DNA of 32,266 bases from Mesorhizobium sp. (GTDB lineage Bacteria; Pseudomonadota; Alphaproteobacteria; Rhizobiales; Rhizobiaceae). The stretch's first letter is position 1. Every line of letters begins with the position of its first letter. The translations under genes and the position numbers were made by a program. The notes beneath the pieces are model-generated. The model was given only the letters and a program-made list of their open reading frames with translations, searched no databases and had not been told where the DNA came from. The stretch is from positions 1 to 32,266 of the forward strand of contig NZ_JAFKID010000044.1 in NCBI RefSeq assembly GCF_017306545.1, written 5' to 3'. Below, in pieces: positions 88 through 28,144 of the stretch.

Positions 88-1365
88 ATGAAGCCCGCGA
101 CGATGGCCGAAAATCCCAAGAAGGCGACCTCCGACGGCCGCATGGCCGACAACATCGTCTATTTCGCCCGCGCGCTGCGCAAGGCGGGCTTGCGGGTCGG
201 GCCGGCTTCGGTCAAGGACGCCATCGAGGCTGTGCTGGCCGCCGGCATCGGCAGCCGTGACGATTTCTACTGGACGCTGCATTCCGTGCTCGTCTCGCGC
301 CGCGAGGATCACGCCACCTTCGACGAGGCGTTCCGCCTGTTCTGGAAGTCGCGCGAGTTGATCGAGAAGATGCTGGCGATGTTTTCGCCCGTCGCGCCCG
401 ACAACCGCGAGAAGGCGAAGCCGCGCGCGGCGGAGCATCGCGTCAGCCGGGCGCTGTTCGAAGGGCATGAAAAGAACCAGCCGCTGAGCGAGGTTCCCGA
501 AATCGAGATCGATGCCCGCCTCACCGTGTCCGGCAACGAGGTGCTGCGCGGCAAGGATTTCGCCCAGATGAGCGCCGAGGAACTGCTGGCCGCGCGCCGC
601 GCCATCACCGAATTGAAGCTGCCGTTCGACCGCGTGGCGACACGCCGCTTCCGGCCCGACCCGCAAGGCAGCCGCATCGATCCGCGCGCCATGATGCGGG
701 CGGCGTCACGCGCCGGCGGCGGGTTGATCCTACCGAAGTTCCGCTCGCGCCGCGAGGTGCATCCGCCGCTGGTGGTGCTGGCCGACATTTCCGGCTCGAT
801 GAGCCAGTACACCCGCATCTTCCTGCACTTTTTGCATGCACTCGGTGAAAAGCGCCGCCACGTCCATGCCTTCGTCTTCGGCACGCGGCTGACCAACCTG
901 ACGCGGCAGATGCGCCATCGCGATCCCGATCAGGCGCTGGCCGACTGTTCCGCCGCCGTGCAGGACTGGTCGGGCGGCACGCGCATCGGCGAGGCGATCG
1001 GCGAGTTCAACCGGCTGTGGTCGCGCCGCGTGCTCGGGCAGGGCGCTGTCGTGCTGCTCATCACCGACGGGCTGGAGCGCGACGACATCGGCAACCTCGC
1101 CGAAGAGATGGAGCGGCTGCACAAATCCTGCCGGCGGCTGATCTGGCTGAACCCGCTGCTGCGCTTCGATGGTTTCGAGGCGCGCGCAAGAGGTGTGCGG
1201 GCCATGCTGCCGCATGTCGACGAGTTCCGCCCAGTGCACAATCTCGACGCGTTGAGCGACCTCGTCGCCTCGCTCGGCCGGCAGGGCCGGGCTGAGGTCG
1301 ATCCGCGCCGCTGGCTGGGGCATCTGGCACAAAAGTCGGGGGTTGTCAGCGGTCGTGCGGCGTAG
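88..1365 (+). CDS. coxE: CoxE-like VWA domain protein (molybdenum hydroxylase maturation)
   Basis: A 425-aa protein of the CoxE family. These act with a MoxR-type AAA+ ATPase (CoxD) in maturing the active site of CO dehydrogenase-type molybdenum hydroxylases. The C-terminal half is a von Willebrand A domain. Its metal-ion-dependent adhesion site is complete: DISGSM at about residues 233-238, a threonine in SGGTRIG, and a later aspartate in LITDGLERDD. The N-terminal half is the helical CoxE region. The start at 88 directly follows the palindromic repeat, whose G-rich tail would serve as ribosome-binding site; ATG codons at 103 and 142 are alternatives, and the conserved part begins near 142. 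The XdhC-like genes follow at 1447, which supports the maturation role. The MoxR partner is not in the window and may lie upstream. Confidence 0.85.
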   Translation: MKPATMAENPKKATSDGRMADNIVYFARALRKAGLRVGPASVKDAIEAVLAAGIGSRDDFYWTLHSVLVSRREDHATFDEAFRLFWKSRELIEKMLAMFSPVAPDNREKAKPRAAEHRVSRALFEGHEKNQPLSEVPEIEIDARLTVSGNEVLRGKDFAQMSAEELLAARRAITELKLPFDRVATRRFRPDPQGSRIDPRAMMRAASRAGGGLILPKFRSRREVHPPLVVLADISGSMSQYTRIFLHFLHALGEKRRHVHAFVFGTRLTNLTRQMRHRDPDQALADCSAAVQDWSGGTRIGEAIGEFNRLWSRRVLGQGAVVLLITDGLERDDIGNLAEEMERLHKSCRRLIWLNPLLRFDGFEARARGVRAMLPHVDEFRPVHNLDALSDLVASLGRQGRAEVDPRRWLGHLAQKSGVVSGRAA

Positions 1366-1390
1366 CCATATATAACGACATCCCGACATC

Positions 1391-1424
1391 GAGGAATGCC
1401 CGATAGCGAGGAATGCCCGATAGC
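1391..1424 (+). repeat. 17-bp tandem duplication upstream of the XdhC-like gene
   Basis: The unit GAGGAATGCCCGATAGC occurs twice head to tail (1391-1407 and 1408-1424) and is followed by a partial third copy. It lies in the 81-bp gap between the CoxE-like gene and the next gene, upstream of that gene's ribosome-binding site. It looks like a local slippage duplication; no function is evident. Confidence 0.7.
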
Positions 1425-1446
1425 GAGAATGCAAGGAGGTTCCGTC

Positions 1447-1785
1447 ATGGACAACCCAACGCAAATCGATGAATCCCGTGACCCGTTGCAGATCGCTGAA
1501 CATTGGGTCGACGAAGGCAGGGACGTCGCGCTCGCCACGGTGGTCGAGACATGGGGGTCGGCGCCGCGCCCGGTCGGCAGCCATCTGGTCATCGACGCCG
1601 AGGGCAATTTCCACGGTTCCGTTTCCGGCGGCTGCGTCGAAGGCGCGGTGGTGACGGAAGCGATGGACGTGCTGGAGAGCCGCAAGCCGCGCATGCTGGA
1701 GTTCGGCGTCGCCGACGAAACCGCCTGGCGCGTCGGCCTTTCCTGCGGCGGGCGCATCAAGGTCTATGTCGAGCGGCTGGCCTGA
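1447..1785 (+). CDS. XdhC/CoxI family protein, N-terminal-type domain only
   Basis: A 112-aa protein matching the small N-terminal domain of XdhC/CoxI proteins. Key features are VVETWGSAPRPVGSHLVI, SVSGGCVEGAV with its conserved cysteine, and a second cysteine in LSCGGRIKV near the C-terminus. XdhC binds molybdenum cofactor and delivers it, sulfurated, to xanthine dehydrogenase-type apoenzymes. Here the domain is a separate gene, and the Rossmann part follows 3 bp downstream. The start at 1447 is fixed by an AAGGAGG ribosome-binding site at 1433-1439; an in-frame ATG at 1396 lies in the tandem repeat and lacks such a site. It should act with the next gene product as a split XdhC. Confidence 0.88.
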   Translation: MDNPTQIDESRDPLQIAEHWVDEGRDVALATVVETWGSAPRPVGSHLVIDAEGNFHGSVSGGCVEGAVVTEAMDVLESRKPRMLEFGVADETAWRVGLSCGGRIKVYVERLA

Positions 1786-1788
1786 ACG

Positions 1789-2493
1789 ATGGACCTCGCC
1801 GCCCTTAAATCTCTCAACGCCGACCGTCGCGCGCGCCGCGCCGCCGTTCTGGTGACAAACCTCGATGACGGCTCTTGCCGCCTGATCCACGAAGGCGACG
1901 CGGCCGGCGGCGAACTGGTCGATGCGCTGCGGCAGGCGTTCCAGACCGGCAAGTCCGGCACGGTCGAGGCAGACGGGAAAAAGCTGTTCCTCAACGTTCA
2001 TCTGCCCAGCCCGCGCCTGGTGGTGATCGGCGCCGTCCATATCAGCCAGGCGCTGGCGCCGATGGCGAAAGTCGCCGGCTTCCCGGTCGAGGTCATCGAT
2101 CCGCGCACGGCCTTCGCCACCGCCGAGCGTTTTCCGGACGTGGCTCTGGATGCCGAATGGCCGCAGGACGTGCTCGCCCGCCGCCCGCTGGATAGCTATA
2201 CGGCGCTGGCCGCCGTCACCCATGACCCGAAGATAGACGATTTTGCGCTGAAGGCCGCGCTCGACGCCGGCTGTTTCTACATCGGCGCGCTGGGCAGCCG
2301 GAAAACCCACGCCAGACGCGTCGAGCGTCTGCTGGCGCTGGGCGCTACGGCCGAGCAGATAGGCCGCATCCACGCGCCGATCGGCATCGACATTGGTGCT
2401 GCCAGTCCGGCCGAGATCGCCGTCGCGGTGCTGGCCCAGATCATCCGGGCCTTTCGCACGCGCGGCGAGGAGGCGAAGGGGGCGGCAGCGTGA
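1789..2493 (+). CDS. XdhC family protein, Rossmann-type C-terminal domain
   Basis: A 234-aa protein corresponding to the XdhC C-terminal (XdhC_C) Rossmann domain. Visible features are LVVIGAVHISQALAPMA near residue 77, then the AVTHDPKIDDFAL segment and the family hallmark YIGALGSRKTHARRVERL, with a closing GIDIGAASPAEIAVAVLAQII. The first 70 residues resemble a short lead-in rather than a full XdhC N-domain. It is expected to bind or insert molybdenum cofactor for a xanthine/CO dehydrogenase-type enzyme together with the 112-aa protein encoded just upstream. Its TGA stop overlaps the GTG start of the next gene, so the two are probably translationally coupled. Confidence 0.9.
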   Translation: MDLAALKSLNADRRARRAAVLVTNLDDGSCRLIHEGDAAGGELVDALRQAFQTGKSGTVEADGKKLFLNVHLPSPRLVVIGAVHISQALAPMAKVAGFPVEVIDPRTAFATAERFPDVALDAEWPQDVLARRPLDSYTALAAVTHDPKIDDFALKAALDAGCFYIGALGSRKTHARRVERLLALGATAEQIGRIHAPIGIDIGAASPAEIAVAVLAQIIRAFRTRGEEAKGAAA

Positions 2494-4103
2494 AATTCGG
2501 ACCGGTTCCGCTGGAGGAAGCGGAAGGCGCCATTCTTGCGCATTCGACCGTCGCCGGGCAGGCGCGCTTCAGGAAGGCGCGCGTGCTTTCGGCCGAAGAC
2601 GTGGCGGCGCTGCGCGAGGCCGGCTTGAAGGAGATCATCGTCGCCACGCTGGCGCCCGACGACGTGGAAGAAAACGAGGCGGCGGCCCGTATCGCGGAGG
2701 CTCTCCGCTTCTCCGGCATCGAAGCGCGGCCGGCCGCGACCGGCCGGGTCAACCTTCACGCCACGTTGACCGGCATCTTCGCCGTCGACAAGCCGCTGAT
2801 CGACGCCATCAACCTCGTCGATCCCGATATCACGCTCGCCACCATGCCGGCCTTCGCGCCGATGGTCGAAGGCCAGATGGTGGCGACGATCAAGATCATC
2901 CCCTTTGCCGTGCCGCAAGCCATGCTGGAAAAGGTGCTGGCGCTCGCCGGCGCGCGCGAGGCGTTTGCCATGCACGCCTATCGGCCGATGCGGGTCGGCG
3001 TTGTGCAGACGGTGCTGCCTTCGATCAAATCCAGCGTGCTGGACAAGACGATCCGCGTGACCGAGGAGCGGCTGAGCCGCACCGGCAGCACAGTTTCCGG
3101 TGAAATCCGCACGCCCCACGCCGCACCGGAAGTGGCGCAGGCGATCCGCGATCTCGCCGATGACAGCGACATGGTGCTGGTGTTTGGTGCCTCCGCCATG
3201 AGCGATCCCGACGAGGACGTCATCCCGGCGGCGATCCAGTCTTCCGGCGGCACCGTCTTCCGCTCCGGCATGCCGGTCGATCCGGGCAACCTCTTCGTGC
3301 TCGGCGAGCGCGACGGCAAGCCGGTGCTCGGCGCGCCGGGCTGCGCCCGCAGCCCCAAGCTGAACGGCTTCGACTGGGTGCTGGACCGCATCGTCTCCGG
3401 CATCGGCATTACCCGGGAAGACATCGCCGGCATGGGCGTCGGCGGCCTTTTGATGGAAATTCCGACCCGGCCGCAGCCGCGCGAGCCGGCGCCGGCCGTG
3501 GCGGCGGGCAAGGTGGCCGCGGTGGTGCTCGCCGCCGGCCGCTCCAGCCGCATGGGCGGCCCCAACAAGCTGATGGCGCTGTTCGACGGCAAGCCGCTGG
3601 TGCGCCGCACCGTCGAGCGCGCGCTGGCTTCCAAGGCCAGGATCGTCATCGTCGTCACCGGCCATCAGGGGGAGCGGGTGAGGGCGGCGCTTGACGGCCT
3701 GCCTGTCACCTTCGCCGATAATCCGGCCTTCGCCGAGGGGCTCTCCACGTCGCTCAAGGCCGGCATTGGTGCTGTTCCGGCTTCCGCCGCCGGCGCGCTC
3801 GTGGTGCTGGGCGACATGCCGGGCGTATCAACCGCCGACCTCGACCAACTGATCGAAACCTTCCACAAGGTCGGCGACCGAGCGGTGGTGCGCGCCGCCC
3901 ATGAAGGCAAGCGCGGCAATCCCGTGCTTTTGCCGAAATCGCTGTTCGATGCGGTCGTGCATCTGGAAGGCGACACCGGCGCCCGCCACCTGATCGAGAA
4001 CGGCGGCGTCGAGGTTGTGGATATCGAGATCGGAGCCGGAGCCGCCATCGACGTCGATACGCGCGAGGCGCTGGAAACCGCCGGCGGCGTCTTGCAGGAT
4101 TGA
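2490..4103 (+). CDS. Molybdopterin-binding / MocA-like cytidylyltransferase fusion
   Basis: A 537-aa two-domain protein. Residues about 165-325 form a MoeA/MogA-type molybdopterin-binding domain (VGVVQTVLP start, VFGASAMSDPDED, later PVLGAPGCARSPK). Residues 342-537 form a MobA/MocA-type nucleotidyltransferase with the loop LAAGRSSRMGGPNK at 347-360 and a metal-binding GDMPG with Asp442. The LAAG...NKL form of the loop is that of MocA (CTP-using) rather than MobA (LAGG...DK, GTP-using). This predicts molybdopterin cytosine dinucleotide, the cofactor of CO dehydrogenase-like hydroxylases, in keeping with the CoxE/XdhC neighbours. The start is a GTG at 2490 overlapping the previous stop (GTGA), with a GGAGGCGAAGGGGG purine stretch upstream. 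Cofactor specificity is inferred from the motif. Confidence 0.9.
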   Translation: MKFGPVPLEEAEGAILAHSTVAGQARFRKARVLSAEDVAALREAGLKEIIVATLAPDDVEENEAAARIAEALRFSGIEARPAATGRVNLHATLTGIFAVDKPLIDAINLVDPDITLATMPAFAPMVEGQMVATIKIIPFAVPQAMLEKVLALAGAREAFAMHAYRPMRVGVVQTVLPSIKSSVLDKTIRVTEERLSRTGSTVSGEIRTPHAAPEVAQAIRDLADDSDMVLVFGASAMSDPDEDVIPAAIQSSGGTVFRSGMPVDPGNLFVLGERDGKPVLGAPGCARSPKLNGFDWVLDRIVSGIGITREDIAGMGVGGLLMEIPTRPQPREPAPAVAAGKVAAVVLAAGRSSRMGGPNKLMALFDGKPLVRRTVERALASKARIVIVVTGHQGERVRAALDGLPVTFADNPAFAEGLSTSLKAGIGAVPASAAGALVVLGDMPGVSTADLDQLIETFHKVGDRAVVRAAHEGKRGNPVLLPKSLFDAVVHLEGDTGARHLIENGGVEVVDIEIGAGAAIDVDTREALETAGGVLQD

Positions 4104-9075: not shown

Positions 9076-10110
9076 CTATCCTACCCGGTGCTTCCCGCCA
9101 AACCCCGTCAGGAACGATGTCAGGTTGTCGCCCAGCGCATCGCACAGATAGCCGCCTTCCTGCACGATGACCGTCGGTAGGCCGAGCCCGGCGATGGCCT
9201 CGCCGATGCGCGAAAAGCCCGGCGTCGAAACGGACAGGCCTCCGAACGGGTCGCCCTCGAAGGCGTCCAGCCCGAGCGCCACCACCAGCGCTTCCGGCGC
9301 GAAGGCGCGGATGCGCCGGAAGGCGACCTCCAGCGCTTCGAGGAAGGCGGCGTCGGCGGATTTGCGCGCCAATGGCAGGTTGAGGTTGTAGCCGAGGCCC
9401 GGTCCTTCGCCGCGCTCGTCGGCATGGCCCCAGAAGAAGGGGTAGAAGCGTACCGGGTCGGCGTGGAGCGAGACGGTCAGCACGTCGCCGCGTGCATAGA
9501 AGATGCCTTGCGTGCCGTTGCCGTGATGCAGGTCGACGTCGAGGATCGCCACCCGCGCCGCCTGTTTGCGCAGCGCCTGCGCCGCGACCGCCGAATTGTT
9601 GACGAAGCAGAAGCCGCCGGCGACGTCGGCGAAGGCGTGATGGCCGGGCGGACGGCAGAGCGCATAGGCCGCGGGCGCACCAGCCATGACGGCTTCGGCC
9701 GCTTCGACCGAGCTCCAGGCGCTCCACAGCGCGCTGCCCCATGTCTCGCCCGAGATCGGACAGGCGGTGTCGGCCATGTGGTAGCCGGCCTGGCCGACGG
9801 CGGAGGCCGGATAGGCGCCGTCGCGCGCCAGCGGATGGATGTTGGGAATCACTTCCGCCGAAGCCCCTTCGATGCGCTGCCAGCGGACAAAAATGTGTTC
9901 GAGGAAATCGAGATATTCCGGCGTATGCACCGCCGCCACCGGGCCGAGCCCATGGTTGCGCGGCCGCTCGATGGTGCAGCCGGCGGCCTTGGCGCCGGCA
10001 AGAAGTCGCTCGACGCGCGCCGGCTGCTCCGGGTTGGGCTGCTGTGCGCCACTGGACAGGAACATCTTCGGATCGTGCCGCTTCTGCTCCACGGCGTAGA
10101 AGGCTTTCAT
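9076..10110 (-). CDS. Acetylpolyamine amidohydrolase-type deacetylase (HDAC superfamily)
   Basis: A 344-aa zinc deacetylase of the histone deacetylase/acetylpolyamine amidohydrolase family. It aligns end to end with Mycoplana ramosa AphA-like sequences, as recalled. Zinc ligands and catalytic residues are in place: His157-His158 (PPGHHA), Asp193 and His195 (DVDLHHGNGT), Asp282 (GLDAFEGDP) and Tyr321 (EGGYLC). Family members remove acetyl groups from small amines such as acetylputrescine or acetylspermidine, and some act on acetamido acids. It is the last gene of a five-gene operon, and its ATG overlaps the TGA of the acetyltransferase gene (ATGA). Given the operon, a 4-acetamidobutyrate-like product could be its substrate; this is inference. 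Confidence 0.92.
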   Translation of the reverse strand: MKAFYAVEQKRHDPKMFLSSGAQQPNPEQPARVERLLAGAKAAGCTIERPRNHGLGPVAAVHTPEYLDFLEHIFVRWQRIEGASAEVIPNIHPLARDGAYPASAVGQAGYHMADTACPISGETWGSALWSAWSSVEAAEAVMAGAPAAYALCRPPGHHAFADVAGGFCFVNNSAVAAQALRKQAARVAILDVDLHHGNGTQGIFYARGDVLTVSLHADPVRFYPFFWGHADERGEGPGLGYNLNLPLARKSADAAFLEALEVAFRRIRAFAPEALVVALGLDAFEGDPFGGLSVSTPGFSRIGEAIAGLGLPTVIVQEGGYLCDALGDNLTSFLTGFGGKHRVG

Positions 10111-10601
10111 GCGGTTTCCTCGTCTGCGGCGGCGAAGGTCAGCAGGGCCTCGCCAATGAAATTGTAGACATGGTCGGCATCCCGCTCCATCCCGATGCGC
10201 TGGTAGAAGCGTTGCGCGACAATGTTGCCGGCGTCCACCTGCAATTCGATATAGACGCCTCCCTGGTCGCAAACCGCACGCGCCAGATGCCTGAGCAGGC
10301 GTTCGCCGATCTTGCGACCGCGATGGCTTTCGGCCACGAAAAGATCCTGCACATAGGCGCCGGGCTTTCCTCGCCATGTCGAATAAATGGGAAAATACAG
10401 GCACATGCCGGCGAATCTTGAATCGACTTCCGCAATCAGCGTGTGGAAATGGGGGTGCGGGCCGAAGCCGTCGCGGCGAATGTCGCCCGGCGTGCTCGTC
10501 ATCTTGTGCAGTTCGCCGACCGTCTCGGCGATGCCGATGAGAGCGGCATGGATGTCGTCCGCGTCGTCCGGCCGGGCAGGGCGGATGGTGAGCCCGGTCA
10601 A
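10107..10601 (-). CDS. GNAT family N-acetyltransferase (small amine type)
   Basis: A 164-aa GNAT acetyltransferase. It has the N-terminal TIRPARPDDADDI, a central AGMCLYFPIYSTWRGKPG resembling diamine/spermidine acetyltransferases, and the acetyl-CoA loop RGRKIG at 94-99 after the beta-strand VQDLFVAE. The C-terminal AQRFYQRIGM is the usual motif B region. It would acetylate an amine with acetyl-CoA in the cytoplasm. It overlaps its neighbours by 4 bp on both sides (start ATGA with the BKACE gene; stop with the deacetylase). This ties it to the catabolic operon and makes a pathway intermediate a more likely substrate than a protein. Confidence 0.88.
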   Translation of the reverse strand: MTGLTIRPARPDDADDIHAALIGIAETVGELHKMTSTPGDIRRDGFGPHPHFHTLIAEVDSRFAGMCLYFPIYSTWRGKPGAYVQDLFVAESHRGRKIGERLLRHLARAVCDQGGVYIELQVDAGNIVAQRFYQRIGMERDADHVYNFIGEALLTFAAADEETA

Positions 10602-11533
10602 AACGCCACCCGGTCGCCACCCTTCAGCGCCAGCATGACGCGCGCTTCGGCCGGCGTCGCCACCTCCAGCGACAGGCCCTCGACGATGCCACGGATGCGC
10701 TTGACCTGGTCGGCGTTGGATTTCGCCAGTCCTCGACCGTCATAGAGCGAATCCTCCAGCCCGACGCGCACGTTGCCGCCCATGGCAGCGGCCATCGAAA
10801 TCAGCGGCATCTGCGCCCGGCCGGCGGCCAGCACCGAGAAGCGGTAGTCGGTGCCGAACAGCTTGTCGGCGATGCGCTTCATGTGCATGAGGTTTTCCGG
10901 ATCGGCGCCGATGCCGCCCAGAATGCCCAGCACGAACTGGATGAAGAGCGGGCCGGAAACCAGCCCCCGGTCGCGGAAATGCGCCAGCGAATAAAGATGG
11001 CCGACGTCGTAGCACTCGAACTCGAAGCGCGTGCCGCAGCCCTTGCCGAGTTTTTCCAGGATCGTCTCCATATCGGCGAAGGTGTTCTTGAAGATGGTGT
11101 GGCGCGTGGCCTCCAAGAGCTTCGGCTCCCACTCATGCTGCCATTCGCGCGGCCGGTCGAGCATCGGGAACAGGCCGAAATTCATCGAGCCCATGTTGAG
11201 CGAGCACATTTCGGGCTGTGCCTGAAGCGGTGCGGCCAGCCGCTCCTCAAGCGTCATCAGCGAGGAGCCGCCGGTGGTGATGTTCACCACCGCGTCGGTC
11301 GCCTGCTTGATGCGCGGCAGGAATTGCATGAAGACGGTCGGATCGGCGGTCGGCCGGCCGTTTTCCGGGTCGCGGGCGTGCAGGTGCAGGATCGAGGCGC
11401 CGGCTTCGGCCGCAGCTATTGCCTCCGCCGCGATCTGGTCCGGCGTCACCGGCAGGTGCGGCGACATGGTCGGCGTATGCACCGAACCGGTGACGGCGCA
11501 GGTGATGATGACTTTGCGCGGTGCTGACGCCAT
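10598..11533 (-). CDS. Beta-keto acid cleavage enzyme (BKACE, DUF849)
   Basis: A 311-aa member of the BKACE family, whose founder is 3-keto-5-aminohexanoate cleavage enzyme (Kce). These zinc enzymes cleave a beta-keto acid with acetyl-CoA to give acetoacetate and a CoA ester. The zinc-binding HLHARDPENGRP is at 50-61 (His50, His52). Other hallmarks are NITTGGSS, the FECYDVGHLY segment and the late GGNVRVGLEDSLYDGRG. BKACE members differ in the acyl side chain accepted, so the substrate cannot be named from the fold. It follows the aminotransferase by 25 bp, so a beta-amino acid turned into a beta-keto acid is the natural feed. Confidence 0.93.
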   Translation of the reverse strand: MASAPRKVIITCAVTGSVHTPTMSPHLPVTPDQIAAEAIAAAEAGASILHLHARDPENGRPTADPTVFMQFLPRIKQATDAVVNITTGGSSLMTLEERLAAPLQAQPEMCSLNMGSMNFGLFPMLDRPREWQHEWEPKLLEATRHTIFKNTFADMETILEKLGKGCGTRFEFECYDVGHLYSLAHFRDRGLVSGPLFIQFVLGILGGIGADPENLMHMKRIADKLFGTDYRFSVLAAGRAQMPLISMAAAMGGNVRVGLEDSLYDGRGLAKSNADQVKRIRGIVEGLSLEVATPAEARVMLALKGGDRVAF

Positions 11534-11558
11534 TTTTGTCCCCCAGCGATTGCCTTGG

Positions 11559-12905
11559 TTAGCGATTGACCGGAAGGTCGAGTTCGGCCGCCAGCGCCTC
11601 CAGCGTATCGCCGAGAAGGCCCATGATCTCGCCGATCTGCTCGCGCGTCACGATCAACGGCGGGGCAACCATGAAATTGTCGCTCTCCGGCCCGCCCTTC
11701 ACGCGGCGCGAATAGACGATCAGCCCGCGCTCGAAGGCGAGATCGATGAGCCGCACGTTGGCGTTCAGATCGCGCGGCAACGGCACTTTCGCCACCGGGT
11801 CGGCGTAGAGTTCGGCGCCGGTCAGCAGGCCCTTGCCGCGCACGTCGGCGACGAAGGGGAAGCGGGCGGACAGCCCTTCCAGTTCGGCTTTCAGAACTTC
11901 GCCCATCGCGGCGGCGTTGTCGATCAGCCCGAGCCGGTCGGTTTCCGCCAGCGCCGCGCAGCCAGCGGCACAGGCCACGGGATTGGCGCCATAGGTATGG
12001 CCATGCAGGAAACCGCCCATGTCGAGAACCGGCCCGACGATGCGTTCCGATGCGGCCAGCGCGCCGAGCGGGGCGTAGCCCGAGGAAAGTCCCTTCGACA
12101 GCGAGACGATGTCCGGCCTGCAACCCCAGTGGTCGCCGCCGAGGAAGGCGCCCGTGCGGCCTATGCCGGTCATCACCTCGTCGTGGATGAGCAGGATGCC
12201 GTATTTGTCGCAGATCTCGCGGATGCGCGAAAAGTAGCTGTCGGGCGGCACGAGAGCCGCCGTCGCCGCACCGCCGATCGGCTCCATGATGAAGGCCAGA
12301 ACGCTTTCCGGTCCTTCGGCGAGGATCTTTTCCTCCAGCATGTCGGCATAACGCGTGCCGCGCTGTTCCAGTGAAAGGTTGTCGCGGTCGCGATGCACGA
12401 ACGGCGCCGGGATCAGCGGCATCGCATGGCCCATCTGCTCGAAGGCCGGCGTCAACACCGCGTCGCCGGTGACGCCGAGCGAGCCGATGGTGATGCCGTG
12501 ATAGGAGGGCATGCGGCCGATGATCTTCCAGCGGTTCGGCTGGCCGGTGGCGACCGCCCATTGCCGCGCCAGCTTCAGGCAGGCTTCCACCGCTTCCGAG
12601 CCGCCGGAGACGAAGTAGATCCGGTCGAGGCCGGGCAGGCGCGCGGCGAGGTCGCGCGCCAGATCGAGCGCCGGCTGGTTCTCGAAATGGATCGTGTAGG
12701 CGAAGGAGACGCGCTCCATCTGCCGCTTCATGGCATCGATGACCGTGCGGTTGCCGTGGCCGATATTGACGTTCACCGCGCCAGACGAGCCGTCGATATA
12801 GCGCTTGCCTGTGGCGTCCCACATGTAGATGCCGTCCGCCCGGTCGATCAGCGGGCGCGGCGCGCGGGTGAAGTGGAAGAGGTTGGGCTTGGTCTGGACG
12901 TTCAT
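11559..12905 (-). CDS. Class III PLP-dependent aminotransferase (omega/beta-amino acid type)
   Basis: A 448-aa class III (fold type I) aminotransferase. The PLP lysine is Lys271 in VSLSKGLSSGYAPLGA, and the PLP-ring aspartate is in IHDEVMTGIGRTG (Asp242). Residues YFVSGGSEAVEACLKLAR carry the phosphate-binding turn, and HGHTYGANPVACAA is the typical later motif. Relatives include beta-alanine, GABA and diamine transaminases. Position before a BKACE gene suggests it makes a beta-keto acid from a beta-amino acid. The start at 12905 has GAGG five bases upstream, and the gap to the preceding gene is only 11 bp, so they form one operon. Confidence 0.9.
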   Translation of the reverse strand: MNVQTKPNLFHFTRAPRPLIDRADGIYMWDATGKRYIDGSSGAVNVNIGHGNRTVIDAMKRQMERVSFAYTIHFENQPALDLARDLAARLPGLDRIYFVSGGSEAVEACLKLARQWAVATGQPNRWKIIGRMPSYHGITIGSLGVTGDAVLTPAFEQMGHAMPLIPAPFVHRDRDNLSLEQRGTRYADMLEEKILAEGPESVLAFIMEPIGGAATAALVPPDSYFSRIREICDKYGILLIHDEVMTGIGRTGAFLGGDHWGCRPDIVSLSKGLSSGYAPLGALAASERIVGPVLDMGGFLHGHTYGANPVACAAGCAALAETDRLGLIDNAAAMGEVLKAELEGLSARFPFVADVRGKGLLTGAELYADPVAKVPLPRDLNANVRLIDLAFERGLIVYSRRVKGGPESDNFMVAPPLIVTREQIGEIMGLLGDTLEALAAELDLPVNR

Positions 12906-12916
12906 TCGATCCTCGT

Positions 12917-14557
12917 TCACGAGCGGCCGAGATAACGGTCGAGCACGTTCCGCGTCACCCGCTCTATCATCGCATCCTGCCGCAGCAGCCCCGCCACCCA
13001 TTCGCAGGTGCCGGCGTGGAAGACCTCGCCCTTGCCGCGCTTGAAATTGACGATCATGCCGTTGGAGTAGCGCACTTTCTCAAGGTTCTCGTCGCTTGCG
13101 TCGCCATAGAGCGTCTCGGCGACGAAGCGGCCGTCCTCGTCGCCGAAGAACTGGTCTTCCAGCGGTATGTCGGGGCTGTCTTCGACCTGGCAGGCCATGC
13201 CGAGCGCCAATATCTCCAGCCCGTCCGGCGCGCCGCTTGTGGCGCTGGGGTAGGGCAGGCCATGACGCATCTCGTAGTCCAGCCCGTCCACCTCATAGCC
13301 GAAGACGTGGCTCTCGGCGCCCAGTATGTCGCCGTAATAGAGCCCGGTGCCGGCGAAGGCCCAGTGCTGCGGGCGATAAATGGGAAAGCCGCGCGCGCCG
13401 CGCGGCGCGCAGCCGCCCCAGCCGGCATAGATGCCGTTCGAGGCGTTGAGCCCGAAGGTCTTGCATCCGGCGCGGCCGATCTCCGGCGCTTCCCACGAAT
13501 TGGTGGCGCGCGTCACGTCGCCGCCGCGATAGGCGGGGTCTTCGGCGCGCGCCCGGTACTTGTAGCAGACCTGTTTGGATCCAAAGTCCTCCAGCCGCGT
13601 CTGCCACATGAAGTTGCCGGCGAAGCGCGCCGCATACCCGCCCTGCTCGACGAAGGCGTCGACCGCGTCGCGCATCTCCCACGTCCAGTATTCGTCGTGA
13701 CCGACGAAGACGGCGCAGTCGTAGTCGAGCAAAATGTCGGGCGAAAAATGCAGGTCGTGCTGGCTGGCGAGGTCGACCTGATAGCCGGCCCGCTCGGCGA
13801 AGCGGAAGAAATGGCTGTCGTAGCTCGCCCAACCGGCGGAGGCGTATTTCTTGGAATGGCCGGTGGCGTAGGCCCATTCCATATGTGGATAGCGCGGCAC
13901 GGCGCCGGGCGGCATCGCCACCTCCAGCGGCACGCGCGGCGCGTCGGTCGGTTTTACGACGAAGCCGCGACACCATGGGCGCTGCGTCGAGACGATGGGC
14001 GAATAAAGGTTGCCGTCTGGCCCGGTGATACCTTCATAGTGGTTCGAGCCGCCCCATGTGTTGTACGCGAGCCATGTGCCGGTCGCCGCGACTTGCAGGA
14101 TGCGGCCCTGCTTCCGGCCCGGCCTCGGCAGGACGATGAGCACATGATGGCAGCGGATCTGCTGCCCGTCGCGGCCTTGCGCCGTCAGCGTCAGGCGATA
14201 GCCGCCGGACGGCCAGTCTTCGCCGATGCGAAACTCGAAACTCGTTTCCCAGCCGCAACCTTCGACCGAACAATCGTCCGGCGTCTCCTGCCAGCGGGCG
14301 GCGATACCCGTTTGCTCGAAGACCTTCGTCTCCCTGCCGCCGTCGCGCACGATTTCCAGCGCAAAGCGCGGCGCCGTCGAACTGACCTGCAACCGCACCG
14401 TCTCGCCCGGCCGATAGGAGAAGCGGTCGCTGTAGCACCAGATTTCGCCGCGCTCGCCGTCCATGCCCGGCCGTTCGTAATAGTGGCTGCGCACGGCGAG
14501 CCTGCGCTGTTCGTGCGTCAGGCCGAAATCCGGGAATTCTGTCGGCAGGCCGGTCAT
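12917..14557 (-). CDS. N,N-dimethylformamidase large-subunit-like amidohydrolase
   Basis: A 546-aa protein matching the large (beta) subunit of N,N-dimethylformamidase. It has an N-terminal beta-sandwich-like region (EIWCYSDRFSYRPGETVRL) followed by the large conserved domain with NTWGGSNHYEG, the strongly conserved VGHDEYWTWEMRD, GGYAARFAGNFMWQTR, and near the end VFHAGTCEWVAGLL. DMFase is an iron amidohydrolase with a large and a small subunit; no small-subunit gene is visible here, and other members of this large-subunit family are probably not true DMFases. It is the first gene of the catabolic operon and may open the pathway by cleaving an amide. The start at 14557 has an AAGGA site upstream. 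Confidence 0.82.
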   Translation of the reverse strand: MTGLPTEFPDFGLTHEQRRLAVRSHYYERPGMDGERGEIWCYSDRFSYRPGETVRLQVSSTAPRFALEIVRDGGRETKVFEQTGIAARWQETPDDCSVEGCGWETSFEFRIGEDWPSGGYRLTLTAQGRDGQQIRCHHVLIVLPRPGRKQGRILQVAATGTWLAYNTWGGSNHYEGITGPDGNLYSPIVSTQRPWCRGFVVKPTDAPRVPLEVAMPPGAVPRYPHMEWAYATGHSKKYASAGWASYDSHFFRFAERAGYQVDLASQHDLHFSPDILLDYDCAVFVGHDEYWTWEMRDAVDAFVEQGGYAARFAGNFMWQTRLEDFGSKQVCYKYRARAEDPAYRGGDVTRATNSWEAPEIGRAGCKTFGLNASNGIYAGWGGCAPRGARGFPIYRPQHWAFAGTGLYYGDILGAESHVFGYEVDGLDYEMRHGLPYPSATSGAPDGLEILALGMACQVEDSPDIPLEDQFFGDEDGRFVAETLYGDASDENLEKVRYSNGMIVNFKRGKGEVFHAGTCEWVAGLLRQDAMIERVTRNVLDRYLGRS

Positions 14558-14645
14558 GGCGATCCTTGAAAAGAAGCTGCCGTCATTTCGGCCGAGCGCG
14601 GGCCGTGCGTCAAGCAAACCCATCGGGCCAGCGCGAGGGGTTCGG

Positions 14646-14700: not shown

Positions 14701-14949
14701 ATGCTGAGGGTCCAGAAAATCAAGATCGTCGACGTCTACGTGCCGACGGCGCGCCGCAAGCTCTTGCATCCCGAAACGGTACGCTCGCTCGCCGAGGATA
14801 TTCTGGAAAACGGCCTGAAGACGCCGATCCAGGTGCGTGAGGACGGCAAGCGCTTTGTCCTCGTCGAAGGCCAGCATCGGCTGGAGGCGATGAACTGGTT
14901 GGGCGAAGAAGCCATCGACGCCTATATCGTGCACGCGAAACGGCATTGA
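14701..14949 (+). CDS. Lone ParB/Srx-type domain protein
   Basis: An 82-aa protein consisting only of a ParB N-terminal (ParB/sulfiredoxin fold) domain: DVYVPTARRKLLHPETVRSL, then IQVREDGKRFVLVEGQHRLEAM. GQHR at 57-60 corresponds to the GERR phosphate-binding box of ParB, which binds nucleotide. There is no helix-turn-helix or dimerisation domain, so it is not a chromosome-partition ParB. The role is unknown; stand-alone domains of this type occur as nucleases, nucleotide-binding regulators or kinases. A GGGAGGCAGG site precedes the ATG. It diverges from the catabolic operon but need not be related to it. Confidence 0.75.
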   Translation: MLRVQKIKIVDVYVPTARRKLLHPETVRSLAEDILENGLKTPIQVREDGKRFVLVEGQHRLEAMNWLGEEAIDAYIVHAKRH

Positions 14950-21549: not shown

Positions 21550-23187
21550 TCAAACGGTCGTATTCTCGTTCCTTGCCGTCAGTCGTGACAGCCAGTCGGG
21601 ATCCATTTCCGGCACGGAGGACAGCAGGAGTTCCGTATAGGGGTGATGCGGCGGCCGGAATATCTCGTCCTTCGGGCCGCTTTCCACCACGACGCCTTCC
21701 TTCATCACCACCACCTCGTCGGCGATCGCCCTGACCGTGGCGATGTCATGGGTGATGAACATGTAGGTAAGGTCGCGTTCGCGTTGCAGCCGAACCAGCA
21801 GCTTCAGCATGCTTTCGGCGACGAGCTGGTCCAGCGAACTCGTCACCTCGTCGCAGATGACGAGTTGCGGATCGGCCGCAAGCGCACGCGCGATGCCGAC
21901 GCGCTGCTTCTGGCCGCCCGACAGCTCCGACGGCAGGCGGTCGAGATAGACGGCGGGATCGAGCTCGATGTCGTTCAAAAGCTGCCGCGTTCGCGCTTCC
22001 AGCGCCTTGCCGGTCAGCCCGAGATAGAAGCGGATCGGCCGCCCGACGATCTCGCGCACCCGCTGGCGCGGATTGAGCGCGGTGTCGGCCATCTGGTAGA
22101 CCATCTGCACCTGACGCAGCTCTGCCTTGCTCCGCTCGCGATATCCGGGCGGCAGCGTCTTTCCGGCAAGCTCGACCCGGCCGCCTCTCGCCGGCAGCAG
22201 CCCCATGATGACCCGGGCGAGCGTGGATTTCCCCGAGCCGGACTCGCCGACCACCGCAACGGTCCGTCCCTTGGGAAGGTCGAACGAGATGCCGGACAGG
22301 ACTTTGTGCTCGCCATAGGCGGCGTCCACCTTCTCTATTTTCATCAGCGTCGACGCGGGGGCAGCGTCCTGCCGCGGCGGCGCCTTGAAACTGCGCACTG
22401 CCCAAAGCGATTTTGTGTAGTCCTGCCGGGGGCTGGACAGCATAGTGCGGGTAGGCGCCTCCTCGATGGTCTCGCCATTGCGCAGGACCATGACCCTGTC
22501 CGCCATCTGCGCCACCACGGCAAGGTCGTGGCTGACATAGATGGCCGCGGTGCCGAGCGACTGGACGGCGTCGCGGATGGCCGACAGGACCTCGATCTGG
22601 GTGGTGACGTCGAGCGCCGTGGTCGGTTCGTCGAAAATGATCAGGTCGGGGCGGCATGCCATCGCCATGGCCGTCATCGCCCGTTGCAGCTGGCCGCCGG
22701 AAACCTGGTGTGGATAGCGGAATCCAATCTCATCGGGATTGGGCAGTTGCAGCTTCCTGTAGAGCTCGACCGCGTCGGCCTCGGCCTCCGTCCGGGTCAT
22801 CAGGCGGCGGAGGACGGGAAACTCGACATGCTGGTCAATCAGGCGGAAGGCGGGGTTGAAACTGGCCGCCGCTGACTGGGCGACATAGGCGATCCGCGAC
22901 GAGCGCAGCCCGCGCCGGAGCTTGCGTGGCGCGCCGATAAGCTCGATGCCGTCGAACTTCACGCTGCCGCCGGCAAACCTGCAGCCGTCGCGCACGAAGC
23001 CCATGGCGGCCAGCCCGATGGTGGACTTGCCGGCGCCCGACTCGCCGATGAGGCCGAACACCTCGCCGCGCTTCACCGTCAGGTCGACACCCTTGACGAT
23101 CGGCAGCCAGGCGTCCTGCGCCTTGCCTTCGATGCGCAGGTCGCGGATCGAAAGAAGGGGGGCGTCGGGCGGATCCTGCCTAGGCAT
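21550..23187 (-). CDS. Dipeptide-type ABC transporter ATPase, fused DppD-DppF
   Basis: A 545-aa protein with two complete ABC ATPase domains. The first has Walker A GESGAGKST at 48-56, signature VSGGQLQRA and Walker B LIIFDEPTTALD. The second has GESGSGKST, LSGGQKQRVGIARA and LVICDEVTSSLD. Each domain has its switch histidine (YVSHD, FITHD). The fusion takes the place of separate DppD and DppF-like subunits of the peptide/opine/nickel importer family and would energise the two permeases encoded upstream. It is the last gene of the operon, 3 bp after the DppC-like gene. The substrate is not readable from the ATPase. Confidence 0.95.
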   Translation of the reverse strand: MPRQDPPDAPLLSIRDLRIEGKAQDAWLPIVKGVDLTVKRGEVFGLIGESGAGKSTIGLAAMGFVRDGCRFAGGSVKFDGIELIGAPRKLRRGLRSSRIAYVAQSAAASFNPAFRLIDQHVEFPVLRRLMTRTEAEADAVELYRKLQLPNPDEIGFRYPHQVSGGQLQRAMTAMAMACRPDLIIFDEPTTALDVTTQIEVLSAIRDAVQSLGTAAIYVSHDLAVVAQMADRVMVLRNGETIEEAPTRTMLSSPRQDYTKSLWAVRSFKAPPRQDAAPASTLMKIEKVDAAYGEHKVLSGISFDLPKGRTVAVVGESGSGKSTLARVIMGLLPARGGRVELAGKTLPPGYRERSKAELRQVQMVYQMADTALNPRQRVREIVGRPIRFYLGLTGKALEARTRQLLNDIELDPAVYLDRLPSELSGGQKQRVGIARALAADPQLVICDEVTSSLDQLVAESMLKLLVRLQRERDLTYMFITHDIATVRAIADEVVVMKEGVVVESGPKDEIFRPPHHPYTELLLSSVPEMDPDWLSRLTARNENTTV

Positions 23188-23190
23188 CGT

Positions 23191-24018
23191 TCAGTCCTTC
23201 ATCCCGCTGACCTTGTGGAGGATCCAGTCGACCACGAAATTGACGGCCACCGTCAGCAACGCGATGGCCGCCGCCGGCAGCAGCGGCGTGATGTCGCCGA
23301 ACGTGATCAGCGTCGCGTTCTCGCGAACCATCGAACCCCAGTCGGCCAAGGGCGGCTGGATGCCGAGCCCGAGAAAGGACAGGGCGGCTATGGTCAGGAA
23401 CACGAAGCAGAATCGCATGCCGAATTCCGCCACCAGCGGCGCCGCCGCATTCGGCAGGATCTCGCGCCGCATGATCCACAGCAAGCCCTCGCCGCGCACC
23501 CGCGCGGCCTCGACATAGTCCATCGCCACGATGCCGAAGGCCACCGCCCGCGCCAGCCGGAAGACGCGCGTGGAATCGAGCACCGCGATCACCGCGATCA
23601 GTGTCACGATGCCGGTGCCGAAGATGGTCAGCAAAAGCAGGATGAAGATCAGCCCCGGCACGGCCATGATGATGTCGACGACACGCGACAGAACCTGGTC
23701 CACCACACCCCCCAGTGTCGCCGCCAGCAGGCCTGTCACCGTGCCGATGACGAAGGCGAGCGCAGTCGCGAAAAAGGCGATGGCCAGTGTGTTGCGGGCG
23801 CCGAAGATGAGCCGGGTCAGCATGTCTCGGCCCAGATTGTCGGTGCCCAGCCAATGCTGCGCCGACCATTGCAGATACTGGTCGCCGACGACCTCGCGCT
23901 CGCTGTAAGGCGCCAGCAGCGGCGCGAAGACGGCGACCAGGACATAGATCGCGATGACAGCCGCGCCGAACAGCGCCGTCGGCGGCATCCCCTTCACGGT
24001 GCGGATCAACGACGCCAT
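23191..24018 (-). CDS. ABC transporter permease, DppC-like
   Basis: A 275-aa inner-membrane permease of the DppC/OppC type. It has the N-terminal transmembrane helix (ALFGAAVIAIYVLVAVFAPLLAPYS), the family segment HWLGTDNLGRDMLTRLIFGARNTL, further hydrophobic helices, and the EAA coupling loop DYVEAARVRGEGLLWIMRREILPN that docks on the ATPase. The C-terminal GIQPPLADWGSMVREN is typical. It forms the channel with the DppB-like permease encoded 7 bp upstream. Confidence 0.95.
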   Translation of the reverse strand: MASLIRTVKGMPPTALFGAAVIAIYVLVAVFAPLLAPYSEREVVGDQYLQWSAQHWLGTDNLGRDMLTRLIFGARNTLAIAFFATALAFVIGTVTGLLAATLGGVVDQVLSRVVDIIMAVPGLIFILLLLTIFGTGIVTLIAVIAVLDSTRVFRLARAVAFGIVAMDYVEAARVRGEGLLWIMRREILPNAAAPLVAEFGMRFCFVFLTIAALSFLGLGIQPPLADWGSMVRENATLITFGDITPLLPAAAIALLTVAVNFVVDWILHKVSGMKD

Positions 24019-24025
24019 CGCAGCC

Positions 24026-24982
24026 TCACTTCGCGTGCATCAGGCGGGGATTGGAAACGATCGACACGATGTCGGCGAACAGGTTGAGCAGGATGTAGGT
24101 CATGGAGATGATCAGGCAGATGGCCTGCACCACCGGCACGTCCCGCTTCGACACCGAGTCCACCAGCAGTCTACCGAAGCCTGGATAGACGAACACGACC
24201 TCGACGATGACCACGCCGGTGACGAGATAGGCGAGGTTCAGCACCACGACGTTGACGATCGGCGCCAGCGCGTTGCGCAGCGCATGCACCATGACGACAC
24301 GCCCCTGCGAAGCGCCTTTCAGGCGGGCCATCTCGATATAGGGCAGGCTGAACAGGTTAATAAGCGCGGCGCGCGTCATACGCATGATATGCGCCGTGAT
24401 CGCCAGCGTCAGCGCCAGGGCGGGCAGGAAGGAACGATAGATGCGCTCGGCGAAATCGGTGCTTGGCGTGATGTTCGAGATGGAGGGAAAGAGGCCCAGC
24501 TTCACCGACAGGAACAGGATCAGGATATAGGCCACGAAGAATTCGGGGAACGAGATCGCGGTCAGCGTGAAGATGCTGGCCGCCCTGTCGAACAGCGAGT
24601 TGCGCAGCAGCGCCGCCAGGATGCCGAGCATCAGGGCCAGCGGCACGGCGATAATGCCCGCGAACGCGGCGAGGAAGAGCGTGTTGCCCAGCCGCTCGGA
24701 AATCAGCTTTGAAACCGGCAGCCCGTTGGCGATGGACGTGCCGAAGTCGCCATGCGCCATGGCCTGCAGCCAGTGCGTGTAGCGGGTCATAGGCGGTTGG
24801 TCGAGGTTGAGTTGGTGGCGCAGCGCCGCCACGGTTTCGGGCGTCGCCGACTGGCCGAGTATCTCCTGGGCGGCGTCGCCCGGCAGCAGTTCCACCGACC
24901 AGAAGATCAGCACGGAGACGATCAGAAGCGTGACCAGGCCGAGCCCCAGTCTCTGCAGGACGAGCCGGGCGATGCCTGTCAT
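24026..24982 (-). CDS. ABC transporter permease, DppB-like
   Basis: A 318-aa inner-membrane permease of the DppB/OppB type. It starts with MTGIARLVLQRLGLGLVTLL and the first transmembrane helix, has the periplasmic LNLDQPPMTRYTHWL motif, and carries the EAA loop YIEMARLKGASQGRVVMVHALRN; it closes with LNLFADIVSIVSNPRL. The frame stays open far upstream, but ATG 24982 is the start because it begins the family-conserved N-terminus and overlaps the stop of the MaoC-like gene (ATGA). Translation is therefore likely coupled to that gene, linking transport to the metabolic enzymes. Confidence 0.95.
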   Translation of the reverse strand: MTGIARLVLQRLGLGLVTLLIVSVLIFWSVELLPGDAAQEILGQSATPETVAALRHQLNLDQPPMTRYTHWLQAMAHGDFGTSIANGLPVSKLISERLGNTLFLAAFAGIIAVPLALMLGILAALLRNSLFDRAASIFTLTAISFPEFFVAYILILFLSVKLGLFPSISNITPSTDFAERIYRSFLPALALTLAITAHIMRMTRAALINLFSLPYIEMARLKGASQGRVVMVHALRNALAPIVNVVVLNLAYLVTGVVIVEVVFVYPGFGRLLVDSVSKRDVPVVQAICLIISMTYILLNLFADIVSIVSNPRLMHAK

Positions 24983-25923
24983 AGTCCTTGCGGCCTCATG
25001 AAGGTCGCCTGCGCCTTGACCACCGCCACGCCGTCGCGCAGACATTCCAGATCGAGTTCCACAGTCCTGCCCTCCTCGCGCTCGCCGAAGCCGCGAACGC
25101 GACCGGTGTAGGTTAGCACGTCTCCAGGCCACACGGTCGACAGGAAACGCGCGCGAACAGCCCTGACATTTTCCGGGCCCAGCCAATGCGCGGCATAGGC
25201 CCCGAGCACGCCCGCATGGTGCATGCCGACGGAGATGAATTCCGGCAGCCCCGCCGCCCGCGCCGCCAGCGTGTCGTGATGGCCGGGCGAATCCTCTCCG
25301 GACGCGCACTGGTAGCGGATCATCTCGGTCAGCGTCAGGCCGGGAACGGTGATCGCGCCCGCGCTCCCGCCGATCGCCAGCGGGACTTTCGCAAGGCCGA
25401 TCTGATCGAGTTCGAGGCGCGCTTCGCCGCGCTTCAGCCAAGGCCGTTCCCGCGTCGTTTCGGCCACAGCGGCCTTGGGACGCCGATCCATCCGGATCGA
25501 GGTCGGCATCCACCGCGCCACCAGACGTCCGTCTGCGGCATCATGGAAATCGGTCTTCATGACGAAGAATTCCAGCTCGCCCGAGCGGCCGTGCTTGAAG
25601 AAATGGTCGGCCACCTCGGTGGAGGCGACCAGGCTGTCGCCGGCACGCGGCGGCGGCCCGAAGAATTCGAAGGATTGTTCGCCGTCGGTCGTGCCGCGGG
25701 CGTCGATGTCGGCGAGCGGCGATCCGACCGGCGGCCGCTCGAGGATATAGCCCCAATGATAGCCGGCCATGACCAGGAAGGTCGGCGGCACGACGGCGTC
25801 GCGCGCCTCCATCCAGTCCGGATGCGAGGAATAGAGGCTGCGCGCGAACTGTCTTATGGCCCCGCGTTCGATCGGAACTTCGAAATCAGGCCCCCGAACC
25901 CCGATGATGGACCCGACGCTCAC
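24979..25923 (-). CDS. MaoC-like double-hotdog dehydratase/hydratase
   Basis: A 314-aa protein with two hotdog folds. The N-terminal half resembles MaoC_dehydrat_N/FAS1-type domains (SSHPDWMEARDAVVPPTFLVMAG, then DARGTTDGEQSFEFFGPPPRAGD). The C-terminal half resembles the catalytic MaoC domain: the motif usually written D-x-N-P-x-H appears as EDSPGHH before DTLAARAAGL, keeping Asp, Pro and His but not Asn. The strand TVWPGDVLTYTGRV also fits. Such enzymes hydrate enoyl-CoA or mesaconyl-CoA-like thioesters or act in reverse. The start is a GTG at 25923 overlapping the stop of the acyl-CoA synthetase gene (GTGA). It probably acts on the CoA ester made by that enzyme. Confidence 0.82.
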   Translation of the reverse strand: MSVGSIIGVRGPDFEVPIERGAIRQFARSLYSSHPDWMEARDAVVPPTFLVMAGYHWGYILERPPVGSPLADIDARGTTDGEQSFEFFGPPPRAGDSLVASTEVADHFFKHGRSGELEFFVMKTDFHDAADGRLVARWMPTSIRMDRRPKAAVAETTRERPWLKRGEARLELDQIGLAKVPLAIGGSAGAITVPGLTLTEMIRYQCASGEDSPGHHDTLAARAAGLPEFISVGMHHAGVLGAYAAHWLGPENVRAVRARFLSTVWPGDVLTYTGRVRGFGEREEGRTVELDLECLRDGVAVVKAQATFMRPQGL

Positions 25924-28004: not shown

Positions 28005-28007
28005 TCC

Positions 28008-28037
28008 ATATGCTCCATTAGCCCTATATGCTCCATT
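28008..28037. repeat. 12-bp direct repeat overlapping the ribosome-binding site
   Basis: ATATGCTCCATT occurs at 28008-28019 and again at 28026-28037. On the minus strand each copy reads AATGGAGCATAT, so the GGAG in front of the acyl-CoA synthetase start is duplicated. The downstream copy is at the right distance from the ATG at 28004. No further function is visible in the 140-bp gap 28005-28144 apart from short GC-rich dyads. Confidence 0.55.
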
Positions 28038-28144
28038 GGCGGCGGCGCGGGCTCACAGGCGCGTCCCCGCGGCCCGCATGGACCGCGAGCCGCCCGAAGA
28101 CAGCGGTGGATGGATACGCCGATTCCTGTCCGGACTTTCCCTAC

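Follow-up and report, generated by a model that had tools for sequence, protein, structure and literature searches.

We propose that a five-gene operon on the minus strand of a 32,266-nucleotide stretch of DNA from Mesorhizobium sp. (assembly GCF_017306545.1, contig NZ_JAFKID010000044.1; the whole stretch is referred to as the window) encodes a pathway that breaks down an N-acylated beta-amino acid whose second amine is protected by an acetyl group, a reading to which we assign a probability of about 0.6. The leading substrate candidate is beta-lysine (3,6-diaminohexanoate) or a close homologue. Beta-lysine itself is a tentative choice, and beta-ornithine, hydroxylated beta-lysines and other homologues also fit. 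The class of pathway is supported by the kinship of the first gene to an N-acyl-beta-amino-acid acylase, by the likeness of the GNAT acetyltransferase to thialysine, ornithine and diamine acetyltransferases, and by the replacement of the BKACE and the deacetylase with other enzymes in some relatives. The genes of the operon are as follows:

12917-14557, minus strand: dimethylformamidase-like hydrolase, first gene of the operon (PF20254, 223 bits; the scan used a longer 5' end, 12917-14623)
11559-12905, minus strand: class III (pyridoxal phosphate, PLP) aminotransferase, proposed beta-transaminase (PF00202, 297 bits)
10598-11533, minus strand: BKACE (PF05853, 360 bits; NF053538, 527.8 bits)
10107-10601, minus strand: GNAT N-acetyltransferase of the thialysine/SSAT type, with a TTG start (PF00583, 61 bits)
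9076-10110, minus strand: HDAC-fold amidohydrolase of the acetylpolyamine type, which would deacetylate the omega-acetamido product (PF00850, 248 bits)

According to the proposed scheme, the dimethylformamidase-like iron hydrolase would free the beta-amino group, and the thialysine-type GNAT would acetylate the distal amine, thereby blocking cyclisation. The class III aminotransferase would convert the product to an omega-acetamido beta-keto acid, which the BKACE, using acetyl-CoA, would cleave to an omega-acetamido acyl-CoA and acetoacetate. A thioesterase could release the acid from this acyl-CoA, and the deacetylase would then yield an omega-amino acid, namely 4-aminobutyrate if beta-lysine is the substrate. 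Gene order, protein families, the conservation of alignable catalytic residues and the replacement of steps are observations; all the substrates and the order of the reactions are predictions.

The same types of step make up the aerobic degradation of beta-lysine in a Pseudomonas, which was reportedly worked out in the Barker laboratory as N6-acetylation, transamination, cleavage of 3-keto-6-acetamidohexanoate and deacetylation to 4-aminobutyrate. EC 2.6.1.65 and EC 3.5.1.51 belong to this route. The operon differs from it by the added acylase-like first gene, and its substrate is only predicted. Furthermore, the Pseudomonas route is said to employ a combined deacetylase-thiolesterase, whereas the operon has a stand-alone deacetylase gene, and a separate 4HBT thioesterase gene adjoins 9 of the 46 related clusters described below, the window's operon not being among these. 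A literature search of titles and abstract openings revealed no paper that assigns genes to the aerobic beta-lysine route.

The initial annotation had described an operon of four minus-strand genes supplying one enzyme for each of the four steps of a beta-lysine-type route. All four genes (aminotransferase, BKACE, GNAT and deacetylase) are present and their families are correct by Pfam scores, but the fifth gene, the PF20254 hydrolase upstream, had been overlooked. The class of pathway is supported. The one-enzyme-per-step assignment leaves out the hydrolase, and GNAT is absent from 11 and BKACE from 13 of the 46 clusters. The operon begins with the hydrolase gene, which ends 11 bp before the start of the aminotransferase gene. 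Three genes were said to be joined by ATGA overlaps; this arrangement occurs solely at the GNAT/deacetylase junction, while the BKACE stop codon is overlapped by the TTG start of the GNAT gene (a TTGA junction) and 25 bp separate the aminotransferase from the BKACE gene. A scan for sigma-70 promoters returned 0 sites, and a terminator scan returned 5 sites against 4.0 in shuffled sequences.

The grouping of these genes is conserved among relatives. Mesorhizobium composti (L031) carries all five in the same order, with identities of 92, 98, 96, 82 and 95%. For a wider comparison we used 46 clusters, the window included, each anchored on an aminotransferase with at least 50% identity; the other genes were counted by identity cut-offs within a limit of 9 kb from the aminotransferase. 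BKACE was present in 33 clusters, GNAT in 35, the deacetylase in 39 and the dimethylformamidase-like hydrolase in 29, and 14 of the 46, the window counted, contained the full set of five. This recurrence, together with the conserved order, indicates that the grouping is not due to chance. The other layouts included hydrolase-aminotransferase-GNAT-deacetylase (8 clusters), aminotransferase-BKACE-GNAT-deacetylase (6) and aminotransferase-BKACE-deacetylase-DAO (4). Among the accompanying genes were those for LysR regulators (26 clusters), a polar-amino-acid-type binding protein (16), a polyamine-type transporter ATPase (10) and the FAD oxidoreductase DAO (6), in addition to the 4HBT thioesterase; the dimethylformamidase-like gene and the polyamine-type transporter occurred together in 0 of the 46 clusters.

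These counts depend on the seeds, since the clusters were sampled by matches to GNAT, the dimethylformamidase-like hydrolase, the deacetylase and BKACE. Of 151 genomes of the family, 40 contain GNAT homologues at E<=1e-20. Seeding with GNAT led to 39 loci (L031-L069), of which 29 hold an aminotransferase with at least 50% identity and ten do not (L033, L043, L044, L050, L059, L060, L064, L067, L068 and L069; L044 and L068 were left out of the 46 for this reason). The window is the 46th cluster, and 16 were reached via other seeds: the hydrolase gave 12 regions and two clusters (L074 and L075; matches in 15 of 385 genomes surveyed across the class, part of them fetched), the deacetylase gave 22 regions and nine clusters (matches in 36 of 398 genomes, part of them fetched), and BKACE matches gave five clusters (L108, L109, L174, L176 and L177).

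Some clusters include other oxidoreductases. L090, L093, L104, L174, L176 and L177 have a polyamine-type transporter and a DAO gene beside the aminotransferase, BKACE and deacetylase, and RidA also occurs in three of six DAO clusters, plus L104. In L068, where no aminotransferase lies within 20 kb, a DAO-plus-RidA pair follows the deacetylase. That this pair simply takes the place of the aminotransferase became less likely in view of the six loci in which DAO stands beside the aminotransferase. One genome (G038) has two clusters, hydrolase-aminotransferase-GNAT and another with a polyamine-type transporter, aminotransferase, BKACE with the residue signature described below, deacetylase and DAO; in G013 and G116, clusters of the transporter/aminotransferase/BKACE/deacetylase/DAO type are accompanied by GNAT at another locus.

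The relationship of the first gene suggests how the pathway may begin. A profile of 18 relatives of the hydrolase, searched against the PDB, gave five distinct sequences below 1e-10: the N-acetyl-(R)-beta-phenylalanine acylase (8i5a, E 2e-15; 8huy, 4e-15) and the large subunit of dimethylformamidase (6lvd, E 3e-15, and two more). Dimethylformamidase is described as having iron ligands Y399 and E521 and catalytic H519 and N547 (PMC7686228). In a hidden Markov model alignment, Y399, H519, E521 and N547 correspond to Y165, H287, E289 and N315 of the hydrolase, all invariant in the 18 relatives, while the second tyrosine ligand, Y440, and E657 fall in regions without alignment to the hydrolase. 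The acylase (8i5a, 8huy and 8i59) has the H-x-E plus N motif and one tyrosine in common with the operon hydrolase; identity is about 14% over a poor model, and the lengths differ (about 545 residues in the hydrolase against about 775 in the acylase). The structure model of the hydrolase is poor (mean pLDDT 53.9), and a fold search with this low-confidence model, in which the acylase provided the six best matches and dimethylformamidase the next three, agrees with the sequence profile. Dimethylformamidase needs a separate small subunit for its activity. Among the small genes that recur close to the clusters are the 4HBT thioesterase (c17) and, in Mesorhizobium-type loci, neighbours of the operon such as c9 that do not belong to it; no search was made with the dimethylformamidase small subunit itself. 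Homologues of the hydrolase (34-52% identity) from other families, at L076, L078, L079, L080, L081, L082, L084 and L085, have no aminotransferase, BKACE, GNAT or deacetylase match above 70 bits in their regions, and the hydrolase family therefore has other settings.

The BKACE exceeds the PF05853 cut-off by a wide range (360 bits against 24.8), and its model is closest to 3e49, 3e02 and 8rip. The last is BKACE15 of Paracoccus denitrificans, with which it shares 60% identity over the model, the fold, the catalytic Glu and Arg, and H50, H52 and E260. The catalytic E173 and R256 (E171 and R254 of BKACE15) are kept in 32 of 32 operon sequences; other residues set the operon enzymes apart. M109, W131, F200 and F232 occur in all 32 operon-linked BKACEs and C110 in 31 of them. 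By contrast, 3e02, 3e49, BKACE15 and a paralogue in the same genome (L070) have V/L109, A110, F/L131, C/T/S200 and L/W232; BKACE15 itself has A110, T200 and W232. On the basis of these shared residues, we consider the operon BKACEs to be a group of their own. Among 60 BKACE loci, 15 have C110 and F200, and 12 of these lie no more than 1.5 kb from an aminotransferase, compared to 3 of the 45 without the two residues. Six of the 60 loci (L110, L111, L113, L114, L140 and L168) come from sequences that had already defined the signature or served as its contrast; with these excluded, the linkage is 8 of 10 versus 3 of 44 (Fisher p 6e-6, uncorrected for relatedness). Three further loci (L126, L132 and L135) combine another BKACE type, in which the signature positions read SACWTW, with a divergent neighbouring aminotransferase (38%) and GNAT (35-38%), perhaps representing a sister pathway with a different substrate.

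The BKACE substrate survey of Bastard et al. 2014 reportedly may have included an acetamido-3-oxohexanoate among its substrates. According to PMC4922564, the substrates of one group within the family are hydrophobic or polar without charge. The acetamido side chain, being non-charged and polar, would suit that group, should the window BKACE belong to it. BKACE15 is reported to accept four short beta-keto acids, 3,5-dioxohexanoate among them; its physiological role is given as unknown, with a genomic context said to suggest aromatics (PMC11961710).

The other three enzymes are consistent with the proposed steps. The aminotransferase has an SKG lysine, K271, which we take to be the PLP lysine; no NCBIfam model was above its cut-off among the matches listed (25 of 69). 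The solved chains closest to the GNAT are 12jc (a thialysine acetyltransferase), 2fe7 and 2bei (SSAT2), followed by SSAT1 and the ornithine N5-acetyltransferase NATA1. An S-T-W stretch is common to the GNAT and 12jc, 2fe7 and 2bei, and the profile-level match to 12jc is about 119 bits. Its S74 and D86 are kept in 46 of 46 homologues and T75 in 43; S74-T75 matches the Ser-Thr of SSAT2 in the alignment, while Q85 stands in place of a Glu in SSAT2. SSAT1 has Asp-Pro at the S74-T75 position, and Ser-Thr in its place shifts specificity to amino acids. NCBIfam includes a model of the beta-lysine N-acetyltransferase AblB, which was not among the nine NCBIfam families matched by the GNAT at E<=0.001. 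The deacetylase is closest to 3men (acetylpolyamine aminohydrolase), 9gkz, 6phr and 3q9b, and carries GHH at 156 and DVDLHH at 191, presumably the His-His and Asp-x-His motifs of the HDAC fold in role.

Two clusters (L062 and L065) lack both BKACE and the deacetylase; after GNAT they encode both subunits (A and B) of a 3-oxoacid CoA-transferase, along with an M20 deacylase of the ArgE/DapE type. The L065 proteins were scanned, and TIGR02429 and TIGR02428 were both over the cut-off, while the L062 proteins were recognised by similarity. In both clusters a gene for a creatininase-family amidohydrolase is present and the dimethylformamidase-like gene is absent. At E<=1e-40 there was no deacetylase in either genome (G021 for L062, G123 for L065) and no BKACE in G123; G021 keeps one BKACE paralogue of another type (L156). 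A CoA-transferase in place of BKACE, and an unrelated deacylase in place of the deacetylase, are what a pathway with a beta-keto acid and acetyl protection predicts. Such swaps show how the pathway may be built from alternative parts.

A number of observations weigh against the proposed pathway or against beta-lysine as its substrate. The hydrolase is equally close to dimethylformamidase and to the acylase, and a second BKACE paralogue in the same genome (L072) has W131 and F200, without C110 or F232. GNAT was found in 5 of the 16 clusters that it did not seed; a sixth (L094) has a divergent GNAT that the count missed. The 13 clusters without BKACE comprise L062, L065, L035 (a 3.4-kb contig) and ten of the hydrolase-aminotransferase-GNAT type (L032, L041, L042, L045, L047, L048, L052, L056, L057 and L058), nine of them in genomes of the family. 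Among these nine genomes, G038 has the signature BKACE in its second cluster, G134 has one beside a deacetylase, and a paralogue in G074 (55% identity) carries C110, F200 and F232 but lacks W131 and has no aminotransferase within the 6 kb examined. In the remaining six (G129, G080, G062, G130, G030 and G031), C110 with F200 occurs in 0 of 24 BKACE matches at E<=1e-40, which include fragments judged on their readable residues; keto-acid cleavage in these six genomes is unexplained. Upstream of L045 are two genes, for a thiolase of the BktB type and for a ligase resembling malonyl-CoA synthase, which may be unrelated to the operon. L074 and L075 consist of hydrolase, aminotransferase and BKACE, with neither GNAT nor deacetylase; their genomes (G207 and G312) have no GNAT at E<=1e-25, with a deacetylase elsewhere (74% in G207, 47% in G312). 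G829 likewise has aminotransferase, BKACE and deacetylase and no GNAT at E<=1e-25.

With regard to beta-lysine itself, the lysine 2,3-aminomutase that the initial annotation proposed to look for elsewhere in the genome did not appear: the KamA family (TIGR00238) had 0 matches at E<=0.001 in this 99.99% complete genome, while 9 of 14 controls matched. Beta-lysine, if it is the substrate, must therefore be imported. The window's operon has no transporter beside it, and the window genome has no close orthologue of the binding protein found in relatives (best by E-value, 37%). That protein (L038) scores under the NCBIfam cut-offs, and its nearest chains are of the glutamine type and ancestral amino-acid-binding ones, so it does not identify the ligand. 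Of the beta-lysine-type route suggested initially, the pathway class is supported, while beta-lysine is a candidate substrate: no KamA-family gene is present and NCBIfam gives BKACE another substrate. Related beta-diamino acids fit too. Biosynthesis of acetyl-beta-lysine was ruled out, with no KamA in the genome and no AblB-type match of the GNAT. Ectoine breakdown was set aside on its known gene set alone, without a search.

The most serious rival is a polyamine-like substrate with a beta-alanine-type end, in which GNAT and the deacetylase would act on the polyamine part, and the aminotransferase and BKACE on the beta-alanine-type piece via malonate semialdehyde. The deacetylase is indeed nearest to acetylpolyamine amidohydrolases, and polyamine-type ABC transporters (10 of 46) and DAO (6 of 46) occur in relatives without the dimethylformamidase-like gene. 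BKACE15 also acts on malonate semialdehyde, but the same source calls this reaction new-to-nature (PMC11961710). The operon BKACEs are unlike BKACE15 at C110, F200 and F232. In addition, the Ser-Thr of the GNAT is SSAT2-like, as opposed to the Asp-Pro of the polyamine-type SSAT1, and on balance we find this explanation unlikely. Less probable still is that GNAT and the deacetylase form a separate detoxification module, e.g., against a basic amino-acid-like toxin, which travels with a plain N-acyl-beta-amino-acid pathway of hydrolase, aminotransferase and BKACE. L074 and L075, which carry the latter three without GNAT or deacetylase, agree with such a module, as does the location of GNAT at another locus in G064, G106, G700 and G848 (the G848 copy with an internal stop codon). 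Against it are the ATGA overlap of the two genes in the window, their joint presence in 30 of 46 clusters (mostly GNAT-seeded), and the M20 deacylase in the two CoA-transferase clusters that lack the deacetylase.

It is very improbable that the database label is correct, i.e., that 3,5-dioxohexanoate or a comparable short, hydrophobic beta-keto acid is what the BKACE cleaves, and that the operon degrades something else. In favor of this label, the NCBIfam equivalog NF053538 (3,5-dioxohexanoate:acetyl-CoA acetone transferase) matches with 527.8 bits, about 98 over its cut-off of 430. A 3,5-dioxohexanoate pathway was nevertheless rejected, as it would leave the aminotransferase, GNAT and deacetylase without a role. 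The BKACE family is described as promiscuous (PMC4922564). The signature residues part the operon group from BKACE15, 3e49 and 3e02 although the score is well above the cut-off, and to judge from these sequences the NF053538 label is likely broader than its name.

Returning to the catabolism of an acyl-beta-amino acid with a protected second amine, we put forward, as a more speculative extension than beta-lysine as substrate, that the operon serves to recover beta-lysine, or a close homologue, from natural products of an acylated or amide-linked kind. The hydrolase would then be a new N-acyl-beta-diamino-acid acylase, and the BKACEs with C110, F200 and F232 would be a subgroup cleaving omega-acetamido-3-oxoacids. 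If so, the operon would provide genes for the orphan aerobic beta-lysine route, with an added first step, and a biochemical route that is decades old would gain a testable gene set. A physiological role could then be given to the dimethylformamidase-like family and a predicted substrate class to a subgroup of the promiscuous BKACE family, with the over-broad database label corrected. Each component comes from a known family; new, as far as our searches show, are the way they are assembled, the acylase-like first step and the BKACE signature.

Elsewhere in the window, a row at 88-4103 on the plus strand, with genes for a CoxE-like VWA protein, XdhC/CoxI, an XdhC C-terminal domain and a MobA-like NTP transferase, resembles a maturation cluster for molybdenum hydroxylases. 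At 21550-29668 on the minus strand, an Opp/Dpp-type ABC transporter (binding protein, two permeases and a double ATPase) is grouped with a MaoC-like dehydratase and an ADP-forming acyl-CoA ligase, beside a divergent LysR gene (29820-30728, plus strand); this set looks like a separate catabolic operon. The small gene adjoining the operon at 14701-14949 on the plus strand, which has no Pfam match at 1e-5 and in which we see by eye a presumed likeness to the N-terminal domain of ParB, is kept in seven Mesorhizobium-type loci including the window (cluster c9).

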